Positions 4,172 through 44,695 of a stretch of 64,000 bases of DNA are shown here, piece by piece. The translations under genes were made by a program, and so were the position numbers. Below the pieces are notes generated by a model, which saw nothing but the letters and a program-made list of their open reading frames with translations, had not been told where the DNA came from and did not search any database. Where the stretch lies: positions 124,001 through 188,000 of the forward strand of contig NW_008805083.1 in assembly GCF_000004825.1 (NCBI RefSeq), read 5' to 3'. Within the stretch, counting starts at the first letter, position 1. Each line of letters begins with the position of its first letter. Source of the DNA: Heterostelium album PN500 (Eukaryota > Evosea > Eumycetozoa > Acytosteliales > Acytosteliaceae).

Positions 4172-5760
4172 ATGCAATCTTCATTGTCAATTCTAAATAG
4201 ATTCACAAGACAATGTTTGTCTGCAAGTAGATCAACCACATCGTCATCCACCTATTTGGTTGGCTATATAAATGGCAACTCGATTCAAACCAATGGATAT
4301 TGTAGTCACAAGAAGAAACATCATCATCATGGCATGGGAACATCGGCAAAGGATCTCGAGGAGGTCGAAGATGCCGCTGCCTATCCAATACAGATGCGTC
4401 GTGCCGATCTCCTAAAGAAGATGGACGCTCGTGAGCAACAGGAAGCCAAGCAATTCGAACAGGACGAACTAGAGGAGATCGAAGAGGACGAAGAGTACGA
4501 CGAGGAGATGTACGAGCAGGACAACGACAGAGACGACGACGACAACGAAAACGCATTCGACCGTTCCGCCATCAAAGAGAAACTACAGTTGCGTCGTAAG
4601 AAGCTGGCGATCGAAGATGAGTTGGAGTCAATCGGTCGTTTCGGATCGGGACACGACAACAAGTTCCACTCGGACGTGCTGTCGGTGGAGCAACTGGAGC
4701 GCGCCGTCTTTGGCGAGGACGGCAAGGTCATTCCACCAGAGAATGTAACTAGCCGTGACATGTACTTGCATCTGATGAGAAAGTATCGTGGATTGCGTAG
4801 CAAGACGAACAAGTCACACGATTTGCCAACTGAGGAATTGTTTGAGTCGGCACACGACGACTGCGACGGCGAGCATCACCACCACACCCCACAGCTCTCC
4901 AAGGAGAGAAAACAAATTTTGCTCCAAAAGCGATTGGACATTTTAGAGAAAGAGAGAATACACGAAGAGATGTTGGCCAAGGCAGAGGAGGTCGGCGCTG
5001 AAAACATCGAAAAGTATCGTGTCAACCCGATGCTCGAAGAGATGCGTGCCAAAAAGGCTGCCAAAGCAGTCGAGGATAAATCATCGACAGAGTATCTCTT
5101 AAGACACATCACCAAATTAGAGAGACAAGGTGTCTTTGATGATCAAGTCACACGTTCACCAACCACCGGTAAAGAGGTCGTCGGAAACAAGAAGTTCCCC
5201 AAATGTCTATTATGTTTTGATTATGGATGGAAAGTTGAACCAATGGTAAGTAAAGCAACAATGTGAATGTTTAAAACTAACTTAAACTAACTTAACTAAT
5301 TAAAACTATTTATTTATATGTTTACTTCTACTACTAATAGAATGTTCCATTGTTAAGTATCTATTTAAATAATGACGGTGATATTTTGCCGAGATATATT
5401 ACAGGAAATTGTTTGAAGCATCAAAAGAAGATCGCTAGAACTATTAAACAAGCGAAACATCTTGGATTGTATTCATATAAGAAGGGTACTTTCACTATCT
5501 ACGATCCAAATGTAGTGCCACCAACACCCAAGGAGGATGTCGAGTACGACAAATGGTTCCGTGGTGACTTTACAGACAAGGATTGGATCGGAGATGAATC
5601 TATCGAGGAGGTCGACGACTTTGAGAATCCAATCGACGTTGAAAAGGAGAAACTCAAACAGAAGGAGTCTATCATGTTGGATATGGGTGTCAGTGAGCAT
5701 GAAGCAGATCAAATCTTGGCTGGTAAATTCTTTAAGATTAAAGATACTGACAGTAAATAA
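4172..5760 (+). CDS. mrps18: Mitochondrial small-subunit ribosomal protein bS18m, with long N-terminal extension
   Basis: Two exons, join(4172..5245, 5341..5760), encode 497 residues. The intron begins GTAAG and ends AATAG, and exon 1 ends exactly after a Met codon. The S18 domain lies at about residues 345-425: KCLLCFDYGW, DILPRYITGNCLKHQKK and IARTIKQAKHLGL match the family's core, which binds small-subunit rRNA. CxxC followed by CxKH is the zinc-type pair seen in some S18 proteins, and the intron falls between the two halves. The N-terminus (Ser-, Thr- and Arg-rich, few acidic residues) suits a mitochondrial presequence. About 300 residues of charged, acidic and coiled-coil-prone sequence separate it from the S18 domain. 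Bacterial S18 is only about 75 residues, so the extension is unusual. Family identity is firm; the role of the extension is unknown. Confidence 0.9.
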
Positions 5761-37081: not shown

Positions 37082-38452
37082 TTATTTATTAATTTGGTCA
37101 AATTGTTGACTCCATACATGTTGACATCCACATGTGTCTTGATTATCAATACCACACAGTTTTCTCTTACAATCTAGAATGACTAGAGCTGGAATCTGGT
37201 TGTAGGTGAAGAAGTAAAAGTTTGAATCTTCAACATGTGGAGCATCCGTTATATACAGTATCTCGCCATAAACAGGAGTTACAGAATTCCATACTCCAAA
37301 GAATTGACCGCTTTTACTTGTGAATCCAAGTGAAACCTTGCCATAGGATTTAGCTGACAAAGTTCCAGGAGTCTTTATATGGTAGGCAGCCAATAGTTTA
37401 GAATTTAAAAGTGGTGTTGTCGAAATCGATATGTTGGCATCTTTGCAATAGAAATCAATGAATTTCATAGACTTGGGGTTAGCTTCCATTATCAGATAGC
37501 TACCATTAATAGATGGATAGTTGTAATTTGGATTAGGGTTGCGTTGTGATATACAACTGAAGGGATGATTCACTATTTGAGTTGGATGATTGAAGTGTCC
37601 CCATACTATTTTACCATTGGAATCTCTTCCGAGAATTGACCATTCCGCTTTAGAGTACGTTGGATCTGGGTTTGGTAAGTGAAGAAATCTTATATCCGAA
37701 TGAAGATGTTCACGATATATTATTGGATTCGCAGTATCATTTGAATAGAATACCATCGTTCCATTTTCCAAATTCATAACATATTTTGAATTGGCTTTAT
37801 AAAATTGAGAAGATGAACTGAAAACACTAGGTGATCCATTCGTATCGCCATTTGGATTGCCAAGATACATCATCAATACACCATCTCTTTCCATTCTCAA
37901 GTAGTCTCTTCCATTCGTAATGAAATCACCTTGTTCCAACTTATTATTCTCTTTATCTTGACTATCAATATAACTGCCAGGAATCATTGTATCCACTGTC
38001 GATGTCAAAGGTCCAAATCTTCCCCAAACCATCTTTCTTTTATAGTTGACCATAACTAATCCATATTCTCTATTGTAAGCACCTGTTTCTAGTAATATTA
38101 ACTCTGTTCCATTTAAACCACTTGTACAGAAATCATATTTTACTTTTTCTACACTATCACGAATTTGAAGATTTGAATTATTAAAGTATAATGAATAAAT
38201 AGGAGATGATGATTTCGAAGGTGTATTATCAAAGGTAAAAATTGGTAGACCATTTCTTTGAATCTGTAAATTTCCTTTTTTGTTTAGAATAAGAGACATT
38301 GATCCAGCTTCTAATCTATCAGTCTGTCGGAAAATCTGTCCAACTTTCAAAGTGGATTTAGGATTCGAAGGAATTGTGAATCTGTCATATTTTATACTTG
38401 ATACTCTAACGGTAAATAAAATTAATAAAATATATAAATATAATTTTAGCAT
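37082..38452 (-). CDS. Secreted bulb-type (comitin-like) lectin-domain protein
   Basis: A single exon of 456 residues. A signal peptide is clear (MLKLYLYILLILFTVRVSS). The rest has beta-strand repeats like those of mannose-binding bulb lectins: GNLQIQRNGLPIFTF, GDFITNGRDYLRMERDGVLM and YLGNPNGD. Several N-glycosylation sites (NNS, NGT, NDT, NGS) and a Cys-rich C-terminus (CKRKLCGIDNQDTCGC) suit an extracellular protein. No membrane anchor follows the signal peptide. Carbohydrate binding is the likely role. The family assignment rests on motif resemblance, so it is tentative. The intergenic region 38453-38903, upstream of it, is AT-rich with no other gene. Confidence 0.68.
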   Translation of the reverse strand: MLKLYLYILLILFTVRVSSIKYDRFTIPSNPKSTLKVGQIFRQTDRLEAGSMSLILNKKGNLQIQRNGLPIFTFDNTPSKSSSPIYSLYFNNSNLQIRDSVEKVKYDFCTSGLNGTELILLETGAYNREYGLVMVNYKRKMVWGRFGPLTSTVDTMIPGSYIDSQDKENNKLEQGDFITNGRDYLRMERDGVLMMYLGNPNGDTNGSPSVFSSSSQFYKANSKYVMNLENGTMVFYSNDTANPIIYREHLHSDIRFLHLPNPDPTYSKAEWSILGRDSNGKIVWGHFNHPTQIVNHPFSCISQRNPNPNYNYPSINGSYLIMEANPKSMKFIDFYCKDANISISTTPLLNSKLLAAYHIKTPGTLSAKSYGKVSLGFTSKSGQFFGVWNSVTPVYGEILYITDAPHVEDSNFYFFTYNQIPALVILDCKRKLCGIDNQDTCGCQHVWSQQFDQINK

Positions 38453-38903: not shown

Positions 38904-40598
38904 TTATAATAAATGAACTTTCTTATTAGTTCTTTGTTTTTGATAGGTTTTTGGTATTGGTGAGAAATGTAGTTGATCAACAACATTATTATCTTCTTTG
39001 GTTTTGATTGATTCGAGATATTTAGATATCCATTGGTGACCGTTATTCTCTTGGATCGTTCCAATGAGTGATTCCACTTGATTGTCCCACCAGTATGGTA
39101 TATCGATGATTTTGATTCCCAGCTCACGACAGATCACTCGCTTCTCAGTGTCGCGATCACGATAGATTTTGGCGTCACCGAAAAGTGGAGTGTCCAAAAA
39201 GTGTTGTTTACCTTGATATTCGAATGCCAGCTTCAACTCGGAACAGTAGAAATCCAATTGGAATCCGGTGTTGGTAGAACGATACCTTAGAAGATCGACA
39301 TCCCGATAGTCCTCGACAACCTTGTAGTCCGGGTGTAACAGCCGATCCAAGTAGATCTTCAGTAGTCGTTGCGACGACTTCTTCCCAGGCATATTAAAGA
39401 GTAGCGGATTCCACTGTTTCTCAGGATAGATCTTTGCCAGACTCTGACAGAATCCACCGTTCTTCTTGACCAGCGAGAATCCACCGATATCACGAATCTG
39501 ACTCCACGACAACCTATACCAATCGGCTTGACTCTCAATCGCGTAGTGACTCTCAGCGAACTGTATAAACTCTCTCAGCACCTCTATATCTAATTTGGCA
39601 GCACGAGGTAAACAAGTGAATCTCCATATTTGCCATTTGTTCTCAACATGTTGTTGTTTCTCTACCATTCCAGTTTTCAGATTGTCATGATGATCTTTGG
39701 GATCTATCAATGTCATAACTACTCTTGCAGGTGAACCGCCAAACAAAGACAATAGACTGGAACCGTAATTCTCTTGAAAATCAAGCTTTGTTATTCTATA
39801 CCAATCTTTCAGTTGTTTGATTTCCAGTTTACGAGCCAGCCATTTTATGTATCTGATCTGATTGTCTCTGTCACTCCAGAATCGTTTCGGTGTATTATCA
39901 AACTTCCAAGGCAGCCATTCAAACTCGGGGTACAGTGAACTTAGTAGCAGATAGACGGAATCGCCATAGACCGATAGTAAACCACGACCTCTGTACTTGA
40001 TGAAATGTGATTTTCCAACGGTATACCAACGTTCGTATTCACGATCGTCAAACGATAATTGCTCTGCCAACCACTTCATATATAGCAGTTGATGTGATTG
40101 ATCCTTCCAGAATCCTCTTGGATTACTAATACTCTTATTGTTTGATTCTGATTCTGATGTTGTTGTTGTCAAAGTATTAAACTTCCATGGTTCCCATTTG
40201 AAATCGGGTTCAACAAAACTCAATAAAGAATAAAGTGATCCTCTGAATTGTTTCCAAACATCATTGGGTATTTGTAATTTACTTAAATCTGCACCGACAT
40301 TATACCAATCCTCTAATTTACCAATGTTTTGTCTTCTACTATTTTCATTTAGAATTTGTTTTAATTCATCTCTACTATAAATTTTATCTACATTGCTATT
40401 ACTATTACTATTCTTTTCGAGGCTATCCTGAATTTCATTAACAACAATATCTTTAGATTCAATCACACTACTATAATATCTATTACTTCTTTTATAACTA
40501 TTTATTATATATGATGAAGATAATAATGATGATAATGTATTAATATTATTATTACTATATCTAAATGTTGTATAAATATATTTAGATATCATCATCAT
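38904..40598 (-). CDS. Predicted mitochondrial protein: four Trp-Tyr modules plus a PD-(D/E)XK-like nuclease domain
   Basis: A single exon of 564 residues. The N-terminus (MMMISKYIYTTFRYS, then Ser/Asn/Arg-rich) looks like a mitochondrial presequence. Four related modules follow, with Trp-Tyr signatures at about residues 98, 191, 266 and 360. Each runs DWY, a short helix, GSSLLSL-type Gly/Leu, then a YPEFEWLPWKF-type ending, with FW and YIKWLA elements between. A C-terminal domain at about 440-510 has LDFYCSELKLAFEYQGKQHF, then RDRDTEKRVICRELGIKI and IDIPYWW. The D449, E460, Q462, H466 pattern and a later RD resemble restriction-endonuclease-like proteins with an EYxGxQH motif. Nucleic-acid cleavage or binding in the organelle is inferred. 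Catalytic competence is not established. Confidence 0.7.
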   Translation of the reverse strand: MMMISKYIYTTFRYSNNNINTLSSLLSSSYIINSYKRSNRYYSSVIESKDIVVNEIQDSLEKNSNSNSNVDKIYSRDELKQILNENSRRQNIGKLEDWYNVGADLSKLQIPNDVWKQFRGSLYSLLSFVEPDFKWEPWKFNTLTTTTSESESNNKSISNPRGFWKDQSHQLLYMKWLAEQLSFDDREYERWYTVGKSHFIKYRGRGLLSVYGDSVYLLLSSLYPEFEWLPWKFDNTPKRFWSDRDNQIRYIKWLARKLEIKQLKDWYRITKLDFQENYGSSLLSLFGGSPARVVMTLIDPKDHHDNLKTGMVEKQQHVENKWQIWRFTCLPRAAKLDIEVLREFIQFAESHYAIESQADWYRLSWSQIRDIGGFSLVKKNGGFCQSLAKIYPEKQWNPLLFNMPGKKSSQRLLKIYLDRLLHPDYKVVEDYRDVDLLRYRSTNTGFQLDFYCSELKLAFEYQGKQHFLDTPLFGDAKIYRDRDTEKRVICRELGIKIIDIPYWWDNQVESLIGTIQENNGHQWISKYLESIKTKEDNNVVDQLHFSPIPKTYQKQRTNKKVHLL

Positions 40599-40764
40599 TA
40601 TTATTAAACCTTCTTTAAGAATAACATAACTGTCTGAATCTATGTTTTTTTTTTTTTAAAAAAATTTGATGATCCTATGACAACTTTTTTTGATTGACCA
40701 ACTGTTGAACATTCATATATAACTTATTTTTATCATTGTCATTAATTATAATAACAATAATAAT
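40599..40764. promoter_or_regulatory. 166-base bidirectional promoter gap
   Basis: Only 166 bases separate the start codons of the nuclease-like gene (minus) and ski2 (plus). The region is AT-rich with a T/A run near 40647-40667. It must carry both promoters unless a leader overlaps the other gene. Confidence 0.6.
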
Positions 40765-43700
40765 ATGACATCATTATCAATAGATCAATTCTTAAATGAA
40801 TTGGAAACTCTAGAAAAGAAACAAACGAATCTACCAAAAGATTCACCACTGACATTTGAAAATGGTGTAGTAACAACCAATATTATAGCCACTGCCAATG
40901 GTATGCCTGATCTATCTGTATACAATAGAAACATAGATAAAACAATTTCTACATCTCTATTCCCTATTTCTTTAAATGTAATTATTATAAACAAACAAAC
41001 AAACAATCAATCAAACAAACATCTAGATAGTTCATTTATATTAACAATATTACATTATTGATAAATGTTGGTTATTAAAGAATTGTATTCCATTGTTTAA
41101 TGATGATACACCAGATTTGTTGGGAAAGGTTAGAGATAGTTTCACTAGTGTTTCGCTTGGTAAGAGTGATTTCCAGGGTTGTTGGGCAAGAGATGTCGAT
41201 TGTAGATCGCTGGCATTCAAGGCGTTGCTGAGTGCAGAGGGATCGGCACCGTCAACCACCATTCAGTTGGAGGTCGATCAAGTCAATCATCAGCTATCGA
41301 TGTCCGCCTACAAAGAGATAGAGTTGAACACCAATCTCAATGCTACCAACTCTACTTCGTTGATGCGTAATTGGAATGAGAGTGGAACAGAGTTTCACCG
41401 TGGAGATGCACAAGCATTCCCTTTCTTGCCTGGTGGAATGGAGCCTGCCAAACCAACAGCAACTTCCTCTGTCCACGCCAACGATAAGAGTGAACCTATC
41501 GATTGGATGTCATTCTGGAAACAACCATCTCAACTATTAACAAAAGCACCTGGATTATCACATGGTTTATCAGTTACAACACAACAAAAACAACAGCAAC
41601 AAGTAACTTCAACATCAACATTTGAATTGATTGATGAAGATGAAGAAGAAGAAGAGGAAGAATATGAAGAAGAGGAATATGAAGAAGAAGTTGAGGAAGA
41701 AGAAGAAGAAGAAACAAAGGGTGATAAAGAATCATCAGAAACAGTAGATGATTCTTTAGATAAGGTTATTGGAGAGAGTAGTTCATCTCTTGAGAATAAA
41801 CTGGAGAGTTTGTCGATTGAGGAGATAAAAGCAAAGGCATCGGAAGCTACTACAGCAATCTCAGAGAATGTCGAAAGAAAACAATGGGCATTCAACGATA
41901 CCAAAGAGATAACTACACCGTTCAAAGAGTTGATTACCAATCCTGCCATTGAATATCCATTCGAGTTGGATTCCTTCCAGAAACAGGCTATCTATCATAT
42001 GGAGAAGGGTGACAGTGTATTCATCTCGGCACATACCTCTGCCGGTAAGACAGTGATTGCCGAGTACGCCATAGCGATGGCTGCCAAGAATATGACACGT
42101 GCTATCTATACTTCGCCAATCAAAGCACTGTCCAATCAGAAGTTCCGTGACTTTAAGAATACTTTCAGTTCAGTCGGACTGATCACCGGTGACGTCTCGG
42201 TGAATCCGTCGGCAGCGTGTCTCGTGCTCACCACTGAGATTCTGCGTTCGATGCTCTACAAGGGTGCCGATCTAATTCGTGATATCGAATGGGTTATTTT
42301 CGATGAGGTTCACTATCTCAATGATATCGACCGTGGTGTCGTGTGGGAGGAGGTTATCATTATGTTGCCGGCACACGTAAAGATTGTGCTCTTGTCCGCC
42401 ACTGTTTCCAATCCTTTGGAATTCGCCGATTGGATCGGTAGAACAAAGAAGATGCATATCTATGTGATTGGAACAACTAAACGTCCTGTTCCTCTCGAGC
42501 ATTACATCCATACGCAATCGAATGATCTCTTCAAGATCGTCGATAGTTCACGTAGATTCCTGAGTGACGGTTACAACAAAGCATATGCTTCGATCTTTAA
42601 GGAGACAACAAACCAGCCTGGCGGTGGAAACAGAGGTGGTGGTCGTGGTGGAAACATGGCGGGTGGCGGTGGCGGTGCCAAGCGTTCATCCGGTTGGTCC
42701 AAACTCATTATGATGCTAAAGGAAAAGAATCAACTCCCGGTGATTGTGTTCTCATTCAGTAAGGCGAAATGTCAGGATTATGCTTTCAGTTTGGGATCGA
42801 ATGTCATTCTAACGACGAGTGGTGAGCGATCTATTATCAAGGTATTCATTGAGGAATCGCTGGCCAGACTGCGTGCAGAAGACAAGGAGCTACCACAGAT
42901 TCTTCAGATTCGTGACTTTTTGGAGCGTGGTATCGGTGTCCACCACGGTGGTTTGCTTCCAATCGTCAAGGAACTCGTTGAGATTCTCTTCTCGAAATCG
43001 TTGGTTAAGGTGTTGTTTGCCACAGAGACATTCGCGATGGGTGTGAACATGCCTGCTAAAACCGTTGTCTACAGTCACATTAGAAAACACGATGGAACGC
43101 AATTCCGTGACTTGTTGCCCGGTGAATACACCCAGATGTCAGGTCGTGCAGGTCGTCGTGGTCTCGATGCCGTCGGTACTGTCATCTTGGCGTGCTGGAA
43201 GGATCTACCGGAGCAAACCACTATGGAATCAATGATTCTCGGTGTACCATCGAAACTTCACAGTCAATTCCGTCTCACCTATAATATGATTCTCAATCTC
43301 CTACGTGTGCAAGACTTCAAGGTTGAAGATATGATCAAACGTTCATTCTCAGAGTTTGCCACTCAAAAAGATGTTCCAGAGATGCGTAATGCCATTGAGT
43401 CGCTAAGAAAAGATTATGAAGCGATTCCACCGATTCAGTGTATTCTTGGTGAGCCCGACATTGAGAACTACTACAATATGTATTCGGAAATCAAGTCGTC
43501 CAGTTCGTTCACACAGCGTGCCATCCTTTCATCGCAATCCGATGCACATTTCCAAGCGGGTCGTGTCGTTGTATACAATCCAAAGAATCAATCCTCTGTG
43601 TTTATTGGTTGCTTACTTGGTTGTAGTATCCCAAGTGGTGGTGGTGGATCACGTCAATTTGCCAACTCTCAGATCAACAGAACTTTCCGTATTTTCGTTG

Positions 43701-44695
43701 CCCACGAAGATGGCACCTACAAGATCGTCAATAGTGAATCTGGGGATGAAGAGATCAAGAGAATCTGCAATGAAAAGCTAAAGATTGAGCTGAAATCGAT
43801 TGAAGCCGGTGAAGCTGCTTCCAGCTCCGTACTCGTTCAGCAACTTCATCGACTTGTCGAAGAGTATCCATTGCCATTAGGACCACCTGCATTGGACCCA
43901 ATCACAAAGCTCAAGCTCAAGAGTGTAGAGTTTGTCGAGAATTATCAACGTCTACAGAAATTGGAGCAGCTGCTACCGGAATCCAAGTGCCACAAGTGTC
44001 CAAAGTTGTCAGAACATTTCGCACTCACTGAGAATCGTGCCAAGATTCACCAACAGTTGGCACAGGTAACTCACTCTGCCTCCGATGAAAACTTGGCACT
44101 AATGCCCGAGTTCCAGACTCGTCTCAAGATCTTGCGTACACTTGGATACATTGACGAAGATAACAATGTACTTCTCAAGGGTAAGGTATCTCGTGAGGTC
44201 AACACCTGTGAGGAATTGATCGTTCCCGAGTTGATCTTTGAGAACTTCTTCTTGGCACTCGAACCAGCAGAAATCGTTGCGGTACTTTCAACAATGATTT
44301 TCCATGAGAAGGATGCCACAGCGCCATCTTTAACACCTCGTCTCAACGAAGCAAGAAAATCACTAGAGAAACTAGCTGACAGAATCAAAGACATGGAGCA
44401 CGATCACGGTCTGGAGACACCGACCAACGGCGAAGAATCAAAGATACTCAACTTTGGTTTGATGGAAGTATGCTATGAATGGGCCAAAGGTATGCCATTC
44501 CACGAAATTTGTAGACTCACCAATGTCTTAGAAGGAACAATCGTAAGAGCAATCACAAGAATCGGTGAAACTTGTCAAGAAGTTAGAAATTGTGCAAGAA
44601 TCATTGGTGACACCAAACTCTACCAAAAGATGGACGAATCAATCAAATTAATCAAGAGAGATATTGTCTTTGCTTCATCTCTATATATTGTTTAA
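40765..44695 (+). CDS. ski2: SKI2-like DExH RNA helicase, cytoplasmic exosome cofactor
   Basis: Two exons, join(40765..40977, 41081..44695), encode 1275 residues, similar to yeast Ski2. The N-terminus has the Ski3/Ski8-binding type region, then an acidic Glu run (about 256-285). Helicase motifs are AHTSAGKT (Walker A, about 387), TSPIKALSNQKFRD, TGDVSVNP, DEVHYLND (about 477), LSATVSNP, HHGGLLPIVKE, ATETFAMGVNMPAKTVV and QMSGRAGRRGLD. A Gly/Arg-rich insert occurs near 585. The C-terminal half has the arch-type insert and a DSHCT helical end (NFGLMEVCYEWAKGMPF). Together with Ski3 and Ski8 it feeds mRNA 3' to 5' into the exosome. Ski2 rather than the related nuclear Mtr4 is favoured by the long N-terminus with the W-AFNDTKEI-type entry before the helicase core. 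Confidence 0.93.

Follow-up and report, generated by a model that had tools for sequence, protein, structure and literature searches.

Within a 64,000-nucleotide stretch of the Heterostelium album PN500 genome (contig NW_008805083.1, positions 124,001 to 188,000; hereafter the window), the reverse strand carries an uninterrupted gene, for which no intron is required, encoding a protein of 564 residues. In this protein a leader-like start precedes four modules apparently related to the bacterial family DUF4046 and a putative nuclease domain akin to those of phages (Table 1). The stop-to-stop frame around the gene comprises 583 residues, so that the first Met lies close to the upstream stop; across 300 mononucleotide shuffles of the gene's DNA, no open run on the coding strand exceeded 133 codons.

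The original prediction, made from the DNA letters alone, described four module starts ending in DWY or RWY with shared YPEFEWLPWKF-like ends. Such motifs do begin at residues 97, 190, 265, and 359, and a hidden Markov model (HMM) derived solely from the four modules of a protein on the IMG/VR contig IMGVR_UViG_3300036766_001138 (P0008, locus L020) recovers four domains totaling 128.6 bits, against 9.6 bits for the best of 1000 shuffles of the protein; modules 1 and 4 are individually weak (14.3 and 15.9 bits). Trp-rich ends are present in all four (WEPWKF, 135; WLPWKF, 228; WQIWRF, 322; WNPLLF, 396), those of modules 3 and 4 being less similar than had been described. The AlphaFold model of residues 60-540 (mean pLDDT 82.3, pTM 0.58), computed from 15 alignment rows of which only one besides the query covers the modules, predicts an entirely helical array with low-confidence insertions, including one in module 3 at about residues 303-319.

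The kinship of these modules emerged from plasmids, in which the module region found two Bacillales records, each weak individually (E 3e-3 and 0.1), whose proteins both match PF13255 (DUF4046) above its cut-off. Profiles of 11 amoeba and phage-contig modules (the fourth module of paralogue B and all of paralogue C, described below, left out) and of 14 DUF4046 modules agreed over 72 columns with a probability of 97.3% in one direction and 97.1% in the other, while a control with the DUF4046 alignment reversed, run in one direction, gave 0.4%. By this profile comparison, the H. album modules are relatives of bacterial DUF4046. The PF13255 model gives no match to the H. album protein, in one search with no positive control matching either, and phage records searched at E 10 contain nothing that matches the module region. 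Among 398 Bacilli genomes, PF13255 was found in five, and the L020 protein had matches at E 1e-5 in 16 (the nuclease in 12, the modules in 4); no listed frame there matched both modules and nuclease, the best candidates alone having been scored. The top module match of L020 in these genomes (E 2.2e-10) crosses stop codons; its modules match a stop-free DUF4046-type frame at E 4.1e-9, on which PF13255 scores 22.2 bits with a cut-off of 22.8. On a plasmid of Alicyclobacillus fastidiosus (L010, L012), a DUF4046 protein adjoins an annotated GerAB-type spore-germination gene, and a second DUF4046 match in that genome contains a stop codon. A full-text literature search for DUF4046 found no paper within a limited collection.

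In the last block of the protein, the motifs AFEYQGKQHF, RDRDTEKRVIC, and IDIPYWW are all present, and the resemblance to Vsr- or PD-(D/E)XK-like nucleases noted earlier is upheld by the structure model, in which residues 405-525 or thereabouts adopt a predicted restriction-endonuclease-like fold of the Vsr type. The domain matches the phage nuclease profiles phrog_559 (E 2.3e-12) and phrog_9084 (E 9.6e-8), and shuffling the protein 20000 times produced the EYxGxQH motif only once. The nuclease alignment contains 73 rows besides H. album, namely four from plasmids or phages and 69 from viral contigs (L020 included), the latter being the distinct sequences among 79 that passed a frame filter out of the best 80 of at least 226 confirmed loci. 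The columns of Asp449, Glu460, His466, and Asp483 are invariant in this alignment, and Lys486 is kept in 72. Column 410 holds Glu in 69 of the 73 relatives, Gln in two (L020 and an ME3 phage protein), Ala in one, and Asn in one; since H. album has Gln in place of the common Glu, nuclease activity is not to be assumed.

A fold search with the model placed Vsr and I-Bth0305I among the best matches and also found similarity to FASTKD4 and to mitoribosome chains of T. gondii and Tetrahymena. The latter resemblances fit a rival explanation in which a non-catalytic, RAP-like domain lets the protein bind mitochondrial RNA and stabilize or mature it without cutting, as do Gln410 and mutation data which, according to PMC11879112, suggest that FASTKD4 itself lacks nuclease activity. 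However, the same source places an Asn in FASTKD4 where Vsr has His69, opposite Asp51, whereas by alignment the H. album protein keeps both the Asp and the His (449 and 466); furthermore, the RAP model PF08373 has no match in a Pfam scan of the protein at an E limit of 10, and the sequence matches found are phage nucleases. This explanation appears somewhat unlikely to us.

The fusion of array and nuclease, thought unusual for a host gene in the original prediction, is not special to H. album as judged from sequence, being present also on a phage-like contig and on a plasmid. The L020 protein, whose frame is cut by the contig end, has four such modules followed by the nuclease, collinear with the H. 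album protein (28% identity over 455 columns, E 6e-57 in a single comparison); the next gene encodes a DnaB-like replicative helicase (phrog_19, E 9.1e-69; Pfam DnaB_C), on account of which the contig is considered phage-like. The Flammeovirga pectinis plasmid protein WP_126620531.1 (P0009) contains one clear module (26.4 bits) directly before an EYQGIQH nuclease domain, with its remaining modules below 9 bits and Glu at the column of Gln410. Further scans of viral contigs revealed no second collinear relative, returning either nothing or only contig L020 again. In a fold search of BFVD with the full model, a Siphoviridae protein (A0A8S5S295, 466 residues) aligned over 482 columns, and the alignments of two giant-virus proteins spanned 426 and 358 columns, all with low TM-scores; these three proteins may carry related arrays.

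Kinship to selfish nucleases, also suggested at the outset, is in line with the phrog matches and with an Acinetobacter phage (L102:2270-5407) in which a ribonucleotide reductase gene is interrupted by the gene for a Vsr-type nuclease; together, they support a relationship of the H. album nuclease to phage nucleases of the homing kind. This DNA-homing setting, along with Vsr and I-Bth0305I being DNA enzymes among the best predicted fold matches, would suit a domesticated site-specific nuclease that cuts, nicks, or repairs mitochondrial DNA, an explanation we consider improbable. A selfish homing gene still spreading in the nuclear or mitochondrial genome, as the homing-type phage relatives and the plasmid relative might suggest, is very improbable: the nuclease part matches only itself in the H. 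album genome at E 10, the gene stands alone between other frames and inside no recognized gene, and its leader-like start is common to a paralogue in which no nuclease is detected.

That paralogue is one of two. Apart from the protein itself, a whole-protein search of the H. album genome found two frames, one of 477 residues on C3 and one of 305 residues on C7 (paralogues B and C); by sequence comparison, both have the modules and no detected nuclease. The mitochondrial-type leader proposed earlier agrees with the composition of the start, which is matched by the first 45 residues of paralogue B (0 acidic, 6 basic). RYYSS at residues 40-44 resembles what we take to be an R-3 type processing site. 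An acid-free stretch of the first 42 residues occurs in 2 of the 17 frames of at least 250 residues in the window, this gene included; the other frame, 4172-5263 (+), may encode a mitochondrial product. Because the case for a leader is one of composition, the leader could be a false lead and the protein a nuclease that defends the cytosol or nucleus against viruses or bacteria; yet no PADLOC model, in a library of prokaryotic systems, matched at an E limit of 1, and basic starts without acidic residues occur in two members of the family, so that this explanation is hardly to be expected. PF08373 had 0 matches in the H. album genome, an absence that is weak since controls matched in only two genomes and below the cut-off. 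Among the papers listed by literature searches on RAP domains in Dictyostelium, on mitochondrial processing, and on homing endonucleases that were domesticated, nothing on the H. album protein appeared.

The modules, fold, relatives, and conserved residues computed here lead us to propose, with a probability of about 45%, that the gene encodes a nuclear-encoded, probably mitochondrial factor acting on nucleic acid, akin to phage or bacterial mobile-type endonucleases, in which the array binds and the Vsr-type domain cuts or nicks. The gene would most likely have been acquired from a mobile-type endonuclease of a phage or bacterium, a direction of transfer we infer because the domain is abundant in phages. 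The four all-helical modules may bind a segment of nucleic acid, most likely RNA, and hand it to the Vsr-fold domain, which, with a metal ion and Asp449, His466, and Asp483, would cut or nick at a set place, or else guide. In H. album, the array would serve as an organelle binding platform, present in one copy with the nuclease-like domain and in two paralogues without a detected one, and its first-choice role would be the maturation or turnover of mitochondrial transcripts. Of the original prediction, the fold, the array, the leader-like start, and the homing-type kinship are thus retained, while a fusion peculiar to the host is not.

Several observations weigh against this proposal. Besides Gln410, the conservation of Asp449 and Glu460 is partly built in, as the patterns of the viral scan contained these two letters and not His466 or Asp483; the nuclease domain is not basic (isoelectric point 6.3); paralogue C, whose true start was not located, is acidic overall; and the phage relatives carry annotations as DNA nucleases, an RNA substrate being suggested by analogy. 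The nuclease tree, in which several branches, that of H. album among them, are long, parts H. album from L020 at a 92/91 fork and unites them in 4% of 200 bootstraps. In a 31-row subset of our choosing, their union, with or without the Flammeovirga row, was not rejected (p-AU, approximately unbiased test, 0.41 in both cases), and a single origin of the fusion is possible.

Table 1. Features of the H. album gene and protein, with positions in the window
Feature	Position	Strand	Evidence or remark
Complete reading frame (564 aa and stop codon)	38904..40598	(-)	uninterrupted; intron not required
Leader-like stretch, residues 1-45	40464..40598	(-)	0 acidic, 5 basic residues; composition only
Module 1, ~residues 73-142	40173..40382	(-)	HMM domain 77-142, 14.3 bits
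Module 2, ~residues 159-236	39891..40124	(-)	HMM domain 160-235, 49.6 bits
Module 3, ~residues 237-328	39615..39890	(-)	HMM domain 237-305, 63.8 bits
Module 4, ~residues 334-404	39387..39599	(-)	HMM domain 355-403, 15.9 bits
Vsr/I-Bth0305I-like nuclease domain (predicted), ~residues 405-525	39024..39386	(-)	phage profile matches, relatives, fold model and search
Gln410 codon	39369..39371	(-)	Glu in 69/73 relatives
Asp449 codon	39252..39254	(-)	taken as Vsr Asp51 position (inferred)
Glu460 codon of EYQGKQH	39219..39221	(-)	alignment
His466 codon	39201..39203	(-)	taken as Vsr His69 position (inferred)
Asp483 codon of RDRDTEK	39150..39152	(-)	alignment
C-terminal tail, residues 526-564	38907..39023	(-)	residues 531-564 net +4

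Upstream of the gene, an intergenic region of 166 bp (40599-40764) separates it from a divergent 98-residue frame starting at 40765, which has no Pfam match at E 0.01; on the same side, a Ski2/Mtr4-type RNA helicase frame with a DSHCT domain occupies 41093-44695 (+), its N-terminal part holding an acidic low-complexity stretch. The 98-residue frame may, as a guess, be the first exon of the Ski2-like gene, in which case the two genes may have a common promoter region. The opposite flank contains an ornithine cyclodeaminase-like frame and a 456-residue frame, 37082-38452 (-), which lacks a Pfam match at E 1e-5 and whose start, by eye, resembles a signal peptide.

Since their relatives are fused to a nuclease, DUF4046-like modules are proposed as nucleic-acid-binding arrays, which would give a Pfam family of unknown function a testable one. 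The gene would also exemplify the recruitment of a mobile-type nuclease as an organelle factor, accompanied in the same genome by paralogues lacking a detected nuclease, and it bears on the open issue of which RAP-type proteins are cutters. A bolder version, in which the nucleus of the amoeba captured a phage-type modular nuclease and re-aimed it at the mitochondrion, the array reading sequence module by module to position a Vsr-type cutter as an independent second FASTK/RAP design and the first function for the DUF4046 fold, we regard as rather unlikely.

Among known systems, I-Bth0305I (PDB 3R3P), of the EDxHD family, has a Vsr-like catalytic fold that is also predicted for the H. album protein, the comparison covering the catalytic domain. 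On our own placement of the EDxHD letters, Asp449, His466, and Asp483 are present, while the presumed first Glu is Gln410; a Gln likewise occupies this position in the ME3 phage protein, whose annotation makes it a homologue of the 0305phi8-36 nuclease, so that the placement of the Glu is possibly wrong. The predicted fold likewise resembles that of Vsr endonuclease (PDB 1CW0, 1VSR), but the H. album protein has no Vsr match among its Pfam matches, and to our knowledge Vsr has no such module array. With FASTK/RAP proteins, as defined in PMC12687428, the protein would share by convergence a leader-like start, helical repeats, and a Vsr-like end domain whose modeled fold is similar to that of FASTKD4 (PDB 9GEK); in contrast, it has no match to RAP, FAST_1, or FAST_2, and its helical part is DUF4046-like, unlike theirs. 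Cleavage of mitochondrial RNA is reported (PMC11879112, PMC12687428) for FASTKD5, which has a similar layout, and apparently does not occur with FASTKD4, so that either outcome, cutting or guiding, has precedent. With the DUF4046 (PF13255) arrays of Bacilli, to which the Pfam model itself fails to connect the H. album protein, the kinship lies at the profile level and extends over the whole module.
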